From the NCBI GenBank assembly GCA_004212095.1, contig RXIJ01000033.1:1-43014 (forward strand): DNA of 43,014 nucleotides, written 5' to 3'. This document shows, in pieces, positions 7,582-36,864 of the stretch. Both the position numbers and the translations under genes were made by a program. Positions within the stretch are counted from its first letter, which is position 1, and the number at the start of each line of letters is the position of its first letter. The notes under the pieces are model-generated. The model was not told the origin of the DNA, searched no databases, and was given only the letters and a program-made list of their open reading frames with translations. The stretch is from Methanosarcinales archaeon. Lineage in GTDB: Archaea > Halobacteriota > Methanosarcinia > Methanosarcinales > EX4572-44.

Positions 7582-7592
7582 GTCCTACTTTT

Positions 7593-7611
7593 TGCACAAC
7601 TTCGCTGTGTA
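7593..7611. repeat. dispersed hairpin B copy (CTTCG-loop family)
   Basis: tgcacaacttcgctgtgta: 6-bp arms around ACTTCGC, 3' of cobA. Confidence 0.65.
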
Positions 7612-7629
7612 GAAGCCCCAATATTTCCA

Positions 7630-9473: not shown

Positions 9474-9675
9474 CAGTCACTATACCCTGTGCTTATAGGT
9501 ACAGGGATTGTTAGCGTTTTTGGCATACAAAGGTTTCATTTTTATTTTGTCTTGTGTAGAGATATATTTCTCCACAACTTCCAGATCCATGATAGCATCC
9601 CGGAGCCAATATGTGATTGAGTCACCATTCCTTTAGATGTGGAAAGTGTTGTCTCAATATTCTACTGCTTCTACT
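9474..9675. repeat. degraded dispersed repeat, copy 1 (homologous to 42560-42776)
   Basis: cagtcactataccctgtgcttataggtacag...atatatttctccacaacttccagatccatgatagcatcccggagcc matches the second locus in the same orientation. Confidence 0.8.
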
Positions 9676-9862
9676 TTTTATCTTCTTGGCTTATACAGCT
9701 TACAGAATACTTTGGTGGATATTTTATGAAGAGGTGGACGTGATCAACATTCACAGCCATATCTATGATTTGAATGTCAATTTCACTGCACGTTTTTCTG
9801 ATGATACCTTCTGTAACAAGGGTAAATCCCCAACCAATATTTTTCCTTGACTTTCAAAGAAG

Positions 9863-10129: not shown

Positions 10130-10214
10130 CTTGATTTCTCCGCAATCAAGAATTATTTTCTGCACAACGAAGTTGTACGGCAGTTAGGTTAATCTCTGTA
10201 CACGAAGGGTACGG
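10130..10214. repeat. composite hairpin element (A-linker-B-spacer-B')
   Basis: CTTGATT/AATCAAG hairpin, AATTATTTT linker, CTGCACAA-CGAAG-TTGT.., spacer gttaggttaatct, then CTGTAC-ACGAAGG-GTACGG. Confidence 0.8.
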
Positions 10215-11829: not shown

Positions 11830-11940
11830 ATAATCACTTCGTTTATCCAATAGCCGAGAAGACCCCTTGCGATAGCTGAGGGATGAATCGGCTCCTTTTT
11901 TTGTGGGCAGTTTAACATAATGGTAGTCGCAACTACATGC

Positions 11941-11959
11941 CAGACCTGGCCCAGGTCTG
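11941..11959. promoter_or_regulatory. perfect 19-nt palindrome upstream of the histone gene
   Basis: CAGACCTGG-C-CCAGGTCTG. Confidence 0.45.
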
Positions 11960-12132
11960 TTGGTTCTCATTGGGATTGTTAAGAGGGGGTTTTTAAACCT
12001 GTCACACTGAGAGTTTCCTCTCTATTTAATGACAAATCACAGTTGCTACGGACTTGGGGAGCATCCATAGGTGTGTATGTATTTATCCTTCCTAACTGCT
12101 GCGTGTTTTCCTTTCTTTTGCTTTCGCTCCCT

Positions 12133-12192
12133 AATCAACCAGTTGCCCTTGCTCCTCACGGTGCAAGCCCCTTCCGAGAGGGAGGGGTGATT
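12133..12192. other. candidate structured RNA/DNA element in the histone-Gar1 intergenic region
   Basis: AATCA...TGATT outer arms enclosing CTTGC..GCAAG and CCCCTTCC-GAGA-GGGAGGGG hairpins. No coding frame recognised. Confidence 0.3.
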
Positions 12193-12496
12193 GACCTAAG
12201 TTGACTAATAGTGGGGTAATACTCCACATACAGCCAATTAAAGCTCTAATTTAGAATTAACGGTATATAAACCTTGTGTAATCATTGAGCTCATTCTTTC
12301 CTGTTTCAAGTGCTATTGTGTTATCAATCAATGAAAAGTGTGAATAATCCTGCTTCTCCGAAATCCATCAAGTCTCTGACTACAGGTTGATGTTAAGAGT
12401 TAGGCTAATTAGTAAAATGCTAATTAGTAAATAGCTTGCGAAGATTTTATATACTATTAATAACATGTATATTAATGGTGTGAACGAGGTGAATAC

Positions 12497-22330: not shown

Positions 22331-22404
22331 CTGCACAACTTCGTTGTGCAGAGATTAACCTAACAACTACACAACTTCGTTGTGTAAAAAACAACTCTTG
22401 ATTA
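22331..22404. repeat. composite hairpin element, inverted orientation
   Basis: CTGCACAA-CTTCG-TTGTGCAG (22331-22351), agattaacctaac spacer, TACACAA-CTTCG-TTGTGTA (22368-22386), then aaaaacaact linker and CTTGATTA. Confidence 0.85.
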
Positions 22405-23414: not shown

Positions 23415-23450
23415 GGAATGGTTGATACTATATCAATCGAGGAGTATTGT

Positions 23451-24350
23451 ATGAAATTAAATGAGTTTTTAACAAGTAAAAATGTTGACAGTGGACTTGC
23501 AGAGCTTGTTGAGTTACTTGCTGAGCAGTCACAGACTATCAAAAGAGGTTTTCTTGGGCACACAGAAGATGTTGCAGGCACCATCAATATTTATGGTGAG
23601 GAGCAGCTTGTACTGGATAAATGGGCAGATGAAGTAATAGTAAGCTCACTGCAAAAATCAAAACTTGCACACTGGATAACTTCTGAAGAACAGCCGGAAG
23701 TAATTGAAATTGAAGATGCGAAACATAATTTTGGAATAACCCTTGATCCACTTGATGGATCATCGTTGATACCAGTAAATCTTACAGTAGGAACAATCAT
23801 AGGCATCTATCCCGGGGAAGTGCTTCACCCAGGTAAAAACATGATCTCTGCTATGTATTTCCTTTATGGGCCCCTAACCACACTTACTATATCGATCGCT
23901 GGAGGAGTGCATGATTTTGTGCTTGACCGTAACAATGAATACATCCTGCAAAAGGAGAATCTCACCATTCCGGATGGTAAAATATATGCATCCGGAGCAC
24001 TCAGAAAAGATTGGCTCCCCTCCCACACCACCTATGTCAACCAGCTCGAAGAAGAAGGATATAAACTGCGATACAGCGGCTCGTTCGTAGCAGACGTACA
24101 CCAGATACTTCACAAAGGTGGAATATTTTCTTATCCAGCGTATAAAGGCAAAGAGTCAGGCAAACTACGTTTACTGGTTGAAGCAAACCCACTTGGGAAA
24201 ATCGTCACAGATGCTGGCGGCGCTATTAGCAATGGAAAAGAAAACATTCTTGATGTTATGCCAACGGCGATATCAAATAGAACACCTATATATATCGGAG
24301 GCAAAAAAGAGATTGAACAAATTGAAGACATTGTTAAAAAAGCTGCTTGA
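23451..24350 (+). CDS. fbp: fructose-1,6-bisphosphatase class I
   Basis: GEEQLVLDKWADE, GITLDPLDGSSLIPVNLTVGTIIGIYPG, LRYSGSFVADVHQILHKGGIFSYPA. Confidence 0.92.
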   Translation: MKLNEFLTSKNVDSGLAELVELLAEQSQTIKRGFLGHTEDVAGTINIYGEEQLVLDKWADEVIVSSLQKSKLAHWITSEEQPEVIEIEDAKHNFGITLDPLDGSSLIPVNLTVGTIIGIYPGEVLHPGKNMISAMYFLYGPLTTLTISIAGGVHDFVLDRNNEYILQKENLTIPDGKIYASGALRKDWLPSHTTYVNQLEEEGYKLRYSGSFVADVHQILHKGGIFSYPAYKGKESGKLRLLVEANPLGKIVTDAGGAISNGKENILDVMPTAISNRTPIYIGGKKEIEQIEDIVKKAA

Positions 24351-24373: not shown

Positions 24374-24546
24374 CTTGATTACTTCGTAATCAAGAGTTAT
24401 TTTCTGTACAGCGAAGTTGTGCAGTGCTTTCGTAATCAAGAGTTATTTTCTGTACAGCGAAGTTGTGCAGTGCTTTCGTAATCAAGAGTTATTTTCTGTA
24501 CAGCGAAGTTGTGCAGTGCTTTCGTAATCAAGAGTTATTTTCTGCA
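24374..24546. repeat. tandem array of the composite hairpin element, 46-bp period
   Basis: Full element CTTGATTA-CTTCG-TAATCAAG-AGTTATTTT-CTGTACAG-CGAAG-TTGTGCAG at 24374-24424. The cgtaatcaagagttattttctgtacagcgaagttgtgcagtgcttt period starts at 24385, 24431, 24477 and 24523 (last copy partial). Confidence 0.97.
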
Positions 24547-24644: not shown

Positions 24645-26387
24645 ATGGAAATTATTAAGGTCAAAGACTTAACAAAAAAATACAAAATAAAAAACACCGG
24701 TGATGTTGTTGTTGGACTAAACAATGTATCCTTTACAATGAACGAAGGAGAGACACTTGGAGTAATTGGAAAAAGTGGCGCAGGAAAGTCAACACTGCTC
24801 CATATACTAAGAGGTATTGAAGAGTTTGACGAAGGAGAAGCTACTATTGATGGGGTAAGGCTAACACCAGATTCTCCCAGCAGCGATTTTTCAAAGGTGC
24901 ATAAAAAAACTGCCATGCATTCCCAGCGATCTTTTGCATTATGGGGGCAGTCGATTTTACACAATGTGATGCGAAAAATCTGTGCAGCGCAAAAGGGATC
25001 TGAAGAGCTTCCGGAGCAGGACAGTACAGATTATGAATCCATCAAAGATGAGGCAATGGAAATCATAGAACTCGTTGGATTAAAAAATAAATATAAATAT
25101 TATTACAATATTTTAAGTGGTGGCGAAAAACAGCAGGTACTGCTTGCCCGTCAACTCGCATTTAAACCAAGAGTGCTTCTTCTTGACGAACCAGCCACTA
25201 TGGCAGATCCAATTACACGAAAAAACATTATCGATACCATAAAAAAAATACACGAAAAACTTGGACTCAGTACTGTATTGGTGTCTCATATGCCAGAAGT
25301 ACACGAATACCTTTCAGACCGGCTAATAATGCTTGAAAATGGATGTATTGTGAACGAAGGCTCAACATCCAAAGTGCTTGAAGAATTCACCAGGCAAATC
25401 ACAGAACCAGTACCACTTGAACCAATAACCTCCAAAACTGAAAAGATTATGCGGCTTAAAAACGTATATAAAAAATATCGTTTAGTCACAAGCAGTGAAC
25501 TGGTACAAACCATCGAAATGAAAAGCATCAACTTTTCCATACCAAAAGGCATAATAATGGCAATGATCGGACCTTCGGCAAAGGGAAAAACAGTGCTCAT
25601 TCGACTGCTTGGTGGGATTGAAAAACCAGACGATGGTGAAGTACTTGTTAATGTTGGTGGCGAATGGATTGATATTTCCAAGTACGGACGAAAGTCTATC
25701 ATCGCACGCCAGAAGGTAGAGGTCATGCACCAGGAATTTGGATTAATGTACAATGAAACAATATCAGAACAATTTGCCTATCGTCTGGGCTTAAAAAGCA
25801 TCGAAACAATCGATAGAGCTATGGCACAGGCAGAAGAGCTTGGTATCACAGACCTGAAACTTGATGTATTGTACAGACTTGCTGACCTTCCGGAAGACGA
25901 GGCAAAAGCAGCACTTAAAAAAATGGGGCTCGAAGCCGACATATTCTCTGAGCTGTTTCCAAGCTTTCCCGAAACAGAAGCAAGAAACGTAGCAAAACCA
26001 GTGCTTGAAGCATTGAATCTTTCGGAAGATATACTTGATCGTCACACTCATGAATTAAGCTGCGGTGAAGAGGTTAGAGTAGCAATTGCACTGCACATGG
26101 TGAGCAAACCGGAAATATTGCTTCTTGATGAACCTTTCGGAGATTTGGATCCATTATCTCTCAGGGATGTGCTGAATGCCATTAAAAAACTCAATAAAGA
26201 ACTCAAAACAACAATCATTGTAGTCAGTCATCAACTCGATGCAGTAAAAGAGATAGCACATGAAGCTGTGTTCATTGAAGCAGGCATCACCAGATGGGGT
26301 GAACCGGAAGAAGTCTGTGAAGTATTTTTGGAGCGAATGAGAGAGATAGAGGCTAATCCAGAGGAAAAAGAGATAGTAACTAATTAA
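24645..26387 (+). CDS. atwA: methyl-coenzyme M reductase system component A2-like double ABC ATPase
   Basis: Two NBDs (GKSGAGKST / GPSAKGKTV; SGGEKQQVLLARQL / SCGEEVRVAIALH) with A2-type inserts. Confidence 0.9.
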   Translation: MEIIKVKDLTKKYKIKNTGDVVVGLNNVSFTMNEGETLGVIGKSGAGKSTLLHILRGIEEFDEGEATIDGVRLTPDSPSSDFSKVHKKTAMHSQRSFALWGQSILHNVMRKICAAQKGSEELPEQDSTDYESIKDEAMEIIELVGLKNKYKYYYNILSGGEKQQVLLARQLAFKPRVLLLDEPATMADPITRKNIIDTIKKIHEKLGLSTVLVSHMPEVHEYLSDRLIMLENGCIVNEGSTSKVLEEFTRQITEPVPLEPITSKTEKIMRLKNVYKKYRLVTSSELVQTIEMKSINFSIPKGIIMAMIGPSAKGKTVLIRLLGGIEKPDDGEVLVNVGGEWIDISKYGRKSIIARQKVEVMHQEFGLMYNETISEQFAYRLGLKSIETIDRAMAQAEELGITDLKLDVLYRLADLPEDEAKAALKKMGLEADIFSELFPSFPETEARNVAKPVLEALNLSEDILDRHTHELSCGEEVRVAIALHMVSKPEILLLDEPFGDLDPLSLRDVLNAIKKLNKELKTTIIVVSHQLDAVKEIAHEAVFIEAGITRWGEPEEVCEVFLERMREIEANPEEKEIVTN

Positions 26388-27488: not shown

Positions 27489-27600
27489 CTTGATTGCTTG
27501 CGAGAGTCAAGAGTTATTTCTGCACAACGAAGTTGCTTGTTTCCGTCGCGCAAGGATGCACCGTTTTTGCTGCACAATCAAGAGTTATTTCTGAATAGCG
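27489..27600. repeat. one near-complete and one partial copy of the composite hairpin element
   Basis: cttgattgcttgcgagagtcaagagttatttctgcacaacgaagttgc (27489-27536) and aatcaagagttatttctgaatagcg (27576-27600). Confidence 0.8.
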
Positions 27601-36636: not shown

Positions 36637-36770
36637 GGTCTTATGTCCAGCCATTCATCGCTTATAAGAGTTACCTTTTCTATGAACTGTCAACTTGGGG
36701 CTGTCAAATTACCACGTGAATTTCGTGTTTTTGATTTGACGAGTCTTTCATTATCTGTTGATGTTTCTTT

Positions 36771-36864
36771 GGTTTTATCCTAAGAAAATGTCTTGTTAAG
36801 GAGTTTGTGTTAAAAAAAGAGGATTTTAGACCTGGTTTTATCCTGAGAACGTGTCTTGTCAAGA
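36771..36864. repeat. imperfect 63-bp tandem duplication
   Basis: ggttttatcctaagaaaatgtcttgttaag at 36771 and ggttttatcctgagaacgtgtcttgtcaag at 36834. Confidence 0.75.

Follow-up and report, generated by a model that had tools for sequence, protein, structure and literature searches.

The window analysed here, the whole 43,014-nucleotide stretch of DNA, carries a 51-nt double hairpin at 24374-24424, with a fructose-1,6-bisphosphatase gene upstream (23418-24350) and a gene for a two-domain ABC ATPase downstream (24645-26387). The unit reads exactly CTTGATTA-CTTCG-TAATCAAG / AGTTATTTT / CTGTACAG-CGAAG-TTGTGCAG and two hairpins are predicted from its folding (z = -3.8), in agreement with a preliminary description of this DNA. 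The double hairpin is genuine and well beyond chance expectation: with up to three mismatches, hairpin B (CTGYACARCGAAGTTGTGCAG) has eight matches in the window against 0.01 expected from shuffling, and hairpin A has three (two of which are one palindrome) against none by shuffling. The 51-nt unit passes into a perfect tandem array of 46-bp repeats, 3.5 copies long (24383-24544), which had been missed earlier. The copies previously listed near 7593, 10130, 22331, 24374, 27489 and 27576 are all present, and those seen here lie near 7592, 10130/10160, 22331, 22367, 24374 and 27489/27578. All had been called intergenic, which is correct for the window except at 27489-27593, where the copy overlaps the 3' end of a doubtful 88-aa ORF. 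The features are as follows.

24374..24394, + strand: hairpin A, CTTGATTA-CTTCG-TAATCAAG (sequence, shuffling, fold)
24395..24403, + strand: T-rich linker AGTTATTTT (sequence)
24404..24424, + strand: hairpin B, CTGTACAG-CGAAG-TTGTGCAG (sequence, shuffling, fold)
24383..24544, + strand: 46-bp tandem array, 3.5 copies, the unit being half of A plus linker plus B
24450-24470 and 24496-24516, + strand: further hairpin B copies inside the 46-bp array
10130..10150, + strand: hairpin A copy with a changed loop
10160..10180, + strand: hairpin B copy
10196..10214, + strand: third hairpin slot CTGTACACGAAGGGTACGG, preceded by linker GTTAGGTTAATCT
22331..22351, - strand: hairpin B copy, perfect consensus
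22367..22387, - strand: hairpin B copy TTACACAACGAAGTTGTGTAG
7592..7612, - strand: hairpin B copy, degenerate
27489..27593, + strand: imperfectly paired A-type hairpin, a truncated B and another fragment of A; TCAAGAGTTATTTCTG is present twice, 71 bp apart
36770..36859, strand not assigned: duplication-insert-duplication unit without hairpin

Elsewhere in the window, a 72-bp tandem repeat (633-816; 2.6 copies, 89% match) lies within a radical SAM/TRAM ORF (252-1673), and a degenerate remnant of an IS200-type Y1 transposase, which has many relatives in the genus, occupies 9475-9846. A HEARO RNA (RF02033, 108.8 bits), which we take to be the RNA of IscB/IsrB-type elements, is found at 11959-12195 on the minus strand. 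No nuclease gene was recognised beside it, and the stretch looks like a mobile insertion because another member of the genus (G003, L115) lacks 11851-12195 at the orthologous position.

A search of the window's own MAG (G000; 1.46 Mb in 119 contigs, 79% complete) with hairpin B, allowing up to three mismatches, returned 118 forward matches, some sites being scored on both strands, and none for the backwards-read control. The corresponding forward counts in three other members of the genus were 92, 157 and 146. Two members of the sister genus had no match, and a single one was found in each of three among 55 other genomes of the order. The carriers named in GTDB are the GoM-Arc1 ethane oxidisers Ca. 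Argoarchaeum ethanivorans (two MAGs) and Ca. Ethanoperedens thermophilum. What had been described from six copies is a large, modular, high-copy palindromic family, restricted to one genus of ethane-oxidising archaea. It is REP-like in the broad sense, both in its number of copies and in its position, since 135 of 189 copies fall outside ORFs of 70 aa or longer. The archaeal hairpin also occurs on contigs of two bacterial MAGs (L093, Omnitrophota MAG B134_G9; L126, Desulfobacteraceae Eth-SRB1 Scaffold30). These are probably misbinned archaeal contigs, since both are single short contigs and L093 has a 93% match to Ethanoperedens over 4.3 kb. A viral origin of the hairpin was considered and rejected, as no exact match to it was found in IMG/VR.

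The copies are mosaics of several hairpins, comprising the A type (CTCGATTGC..GCAATCGAG) and B along with other stems (among them CTGCAAAGCGCAAGCTTTGCAG, CTGTACACGAAGTGTACAG, CTGCATACGCAGTATGCAG and CCGCACACGGAGTGTGCGG), with T-rich linkers of ~15 nt between them. By simple pair counts over 305 copies, rather than a covariance model, changes on both sides of a stem numbered 96 against 29 expected under independence, and one-sided mispairs (153) exceeded wobbles (105). Pairing is thus common to the subfamilies and not strongly maintained within hairpin B, so that the earlier claim of stems varying with pairing maintained holds between stem types but only loosely within B. The hairpin would therefore seem to matter at the time of copying, with weak selection afterwards.

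Direct repeats with a score of at least 12 flank 98 of 267 B copies, compared with 8 of 267 random positions, and the long direct repeats around many lone copies consist of unique host DNA. Orthologous empty sites in sister species contain one copy of the duplicated sequence, giving target duplications of 17-40 bp, including the following.

L102 against L107: duplication ATTGCCATATTTACTCA, 17 bp
L223 against L190: duplication TGCATACAGGATAGAGGATT, 20 bp
L233 against L192: duplication GTAATCATCCCTCATATGTAACACCAATTATTTC, 34-36 bp
L239 against L097: duplication of ~34 bp
L169 against L150: duplication of ~25 bp

The copies are therefore mobile and insert with long target duplications; the candidate enzyme is considered below. 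The reading of the family as a REP-like mobile hairpin, one of several offered in the preliminary description, is in this respect upheld by high copy number, restriction to a genus and empty sites in sister species. The 3' end of the inserted piece usually falls at the hairpin base, with 0-4 nt extra, its 5' end is variable, and no inverted ends common to the inserts were found. New copies land between genes or at gene starts and duplicate roughly 30 or 37 bp of the target. Several insertions at apparent gene starts duplicate the Shine-Dalgarno sequence and the start codon (for example AGGTGATATAAAATG and GGTGTAACGAAATG), and one known target is the gene start GGTGTAACGAAATGCAGG.... A preference for G at the start of the duplication and C at its end is weak (p = 0.03 and 0.01, respectively), and no PAM or leader motif was established. 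Units of duplication plus insert can afterwards multiply in tandem, as seen in mini-arrays that repeat the whole unit with periods of 73 (L235), 72 (L165 and L233) and 66 bp (L056); tandem arrays with other periods also exist (35, 46 in the window's array, and ~59 bp). The period-66 mini-array (L056:528-770) begins at the apparent 3' end of a putative tRNA gene.

We searched non-redundant sequence of the genus (~2.0 Mb) for two-copy duplications enclosing an insert of any kind, and discarded native CRISPR repeats as well as coding repeats. The latter included period-66/69 duplications in genes for repetitive surface proteins. Of the 73 events that passed this filter, 33 have periods of 65-68 or 71-76 bp, against 4.5 under a uniform spread, and among host-sequence duplications with periods of 50-110 bp the proportion is 27 of 37; these period windows were set after the data had been seen, but they coincide with native periods that were measured separately. 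Most inserts measure close to 36 bp, and the events of the long-period class have the longer duplications (Mann-Whitney p = 0.04). The native CRISPR arrays of the genus are of two types, one with a 30-bp repeat, a period of 66-68 bp and spacers of 36-38 bp, and the other with a 37-bp repeat, a period mostly of 72-76 bp and spacers mainly of 35-39 bp. The two period classes of the insertions thus match the periods of the native arrays, as off-array integration of spacers would predict. Exceptions to this geometry also occur, with several inserts longer than a spacer (58-138 bp) and accompanied by shorter duplications (17-26 bp). The hairpin-free unit of the window, in which 27-bp copies (36770-36796 and 36833-36859, with mismatches) surround a 36-bp insert, has a period of 63 bp, outside both classes, and is also found in the sister species G003 (L164).

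Most inserts belong to the hairpin family, and a minority lack its motifs, so their origins are not as varied as those of ordinary spacers. Inserts without the motifs have the same geometry, with duplication and insert lengths of 31/36 (L069), 39/35 (L119), 40/34 (L159) and 39/36 bp (L088). An empty site for the L159 insertion is present in G000; for L069 and L119, orthologous flanks across the site were not recovered. No donor for the non-hairpin inserts turned up in the DNA examined, nor did a viral match for one such orphan insert. A second, unrelated hairpin family, CCGTATCGCTTTGCGATGCGG, also serves as insert (L213, 33/38 bp; L088, 41/33 bp) and was located at L213:3940, L088:3816, L222:17709 and L125:7814, with target duplications of a like kind. 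In G003, a 37/35-bp event lies inside the cas operon, adjoining cas6; on the opposite strand, its repeat ends in CTTGAAAC, resembling the GATTGAAAC of the native repeats. The units are not CRISPR arrays proper, being isolated two-copy units or mini-arrays that mostly repeat one insert. In a hairpin-free genome from another family of the order (G009), an exact 39-bp duplication surrounds a 39-bp insert with a period of 78 bp (L318:12845). The sister-genus genome G004, which has the 37-bp CRISPR type in common with the genus and is free of the hairpins, gave no event in either period window over 0.6 Mb, against 9.9 expected.

The inserts and duplications have the sizes that CRISPR memory produces in these cells, an indication that CRISPR machinery spread the family. 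We consider off-target integration of the Cas1-Cas2 spacer type to be about an even bet (probability roughly 0.5) as the means by which this REP-like family was dispersed, and an off-target type I-B adaptation complex, its catalysis putative, would be the simplest single explanation. With slightly less confidence, we tentatively name type I-B Cas1-Cas2-Cas4 itself as the mobiliser of a REP-like family that has no transposase of its own and leaves 30- or 37-bp target duplications. The basic mobile piece would consist of a T-rich linker of ~15 nt and a hairpin of ~21 nt, ~36 bp in total. Hairpin-forming self DNA may have been captured repeatedly as spacer-sized fragments, and the adaptation integrase (Cas1-Cas2, with Cas4) would insert these off-target, treating ordinary chromosomal sites as repeats. 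Since it would take hairpin DNA as spacers and chromosomal sites as repeats, its own rulers would set the sizes of both insert and duplication. Copies would be kept where genes are not disrupted, because the duplication restores the start of a gene that is hit, and most may have no dedicated role as RNA, being by-products or selfish passengers.

Type I-B cas1, cas2 and cas4 were read in G002, and cas1 and cas4 in G003. Neither cas1 nor CRISPR repeats of the 30- and 37-bp types were found in G000 or G001, both of which are incomplete. None of 59 native spacers of the genus contains the hairpin motifs, which could be because self-targeting spacers are lost, and G004 has Cas1 yet shows no such events. 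Placement of spacers outside arrays has a precedent in cells overexpressing Cas1-Cas2 (Nivala et al. 2018, as cited in PMC11788318).

The absence of hairpins from native spacers would be expected if a dedicated transposase or integrase of the genus recognised the hairpin and cut with a stagger of ~30-40 bp, the match to CRISPR sizes being coincidental. We regard this as a doubtful but serious alternative. It would account for the dominance of hairpin DNA among the inserts and for the position of their 3' ends at the hairpin base, and two elements of the IS1634 family are known to make long duplications, of 8-514 bp (PMC2266710). It does not explain why non-hairpin inserts share the same geometry, or why there are two period classes and why these equal the two native CRISPR periods. 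The inserts also lack common inverted ends, and no candidate gene was found, DDE transposases lying outside the systematic search. With variable 5' ends and no shared inverted ends, the inserts do not resemble MITEs of a DDE transposon (such as the IS1634 type).

Replication slippage or template switching at hairpins, copying a short ectopic stretch and duplicating the local target, is improbable as the general mechanism. Slippage does occur here, as the tandem arrays with periods of 35, 46 and ~59 bp show, and variable 5' ends of inserts would be compatible with it, but it predicts broad distributions of duplication and insert lengths instead of two narrow period classes, and does not predict non-hairpin inserts of equal size. 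The same variable 5' ends, combined with a fixed 3' end at the hairpin and long target duplications, recall target-primed reverse transcription, in the manner of a SINE, of an RNA bearing a 3' hairpin. This is very unlikely, as only one of the four (incomplete) genus genomes contains a PF00078 reverse transcriptase, in a single copy.

Mobilisation of a REP by a RAYT or IS200-type Y1 transposase had been proposed in the preliminary description, and intact Y1 transposases do exist in the genus, but 52 of 61 genomes of the order contain them, irrespective of the repeat. Of 17 such genes, 6 lie within 600 bp of hairpins, against 23% expected, which is not significant, and IS200/IS605 elements make no target duplication (PMC2817692), whereas the insertions here carry long ones. 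We therefore abandon this proposal as highly unlikely. By eye, the flanks of 72 copies contain no constant GTAG-type head, hairpin B being preceded mostly by TTATTT(T), GGTT or TTAATCT. Least credible of all is the earlier suggestion that selection for structure preserves the copies as 3'-end, terminator or stability elements of RNA: the excess of two-sided stem changes, a mild excess of copies in convergent gaps (26% compared with 19%) and their depletion in divergent gaps (15% compared with 24%) would speak for it, but in co-directional gaps there is no strand preference towards the upstream gene (31 copies on the gene's strand, 49 on the opposite strand), one-sided mispairs are common within hairpin B, insertions duplicate gene starts and no Rfam match was found on the hairpin elements.

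If dispersal by the CRISPR adaptation complex is correct, natural spacer acquisition is not confined to arrays and reshapes the genome, spreading short hairpins beside genes and duplicating gene starts. This would add a route of repeat dispersal to those provided by transposases and reverse transcriptases, and would explain a high-copy REP-like family in an archaeon that has no RAYT. The insertions would then be fossils of off-target integration by Cas1-Cas2, and the preferences of this integration could be read from them.

Even if another enzyme is responsible, a family whose inserts measure roughly 36 bp and whose target duplications measure roughly 30 or 37 bp fits none of the mobile elements with which it was compared, and no description of the hairpin family or its target duplications was found in the literature. 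REP and BIME sequences and REPINs with their RAYTs (PMC2817692, PMC3116915, PMC3733652) are similar in being short intergenic palindromes that form mosaics and number about a hundred or more per genome. The present family differs from them in its archaeal host, its long target duplications and the several unrelated stems of each mosaic, and has neither a constant GTAG-type head nor an associated transposase gene. Archaeal intergenic palindromes of a REP-like kind have been surveyed with RepRanger (PMC12306157), where Argoarchaeum is not mentioned. IS1549 and IS1634 (PMC2266710) also produce variable target duplications that are longer than usual (8-514 bp), but are elements of 1.5-2 kb with a transposase and inverted ends, in contrast to inserts that are mostly ~36 bp and have two preferred periods. 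The insertion signature is thus unlike that of REPs and matches the geometry of CRISPR adaptation in the host. It is comparable to off-array integration by Cas1-Cas2, in which, as relayed by PMC11788318 and PMC9456107 from Nivala et al. (2018), an insert of spacer size is placed outside arrays with a target duplication of repeat size. In those accounts the integration followed overexpression in the laboratory, whereas here it would be natural and genome-wide, with one self-derived hairpin family dominant among the inserts.
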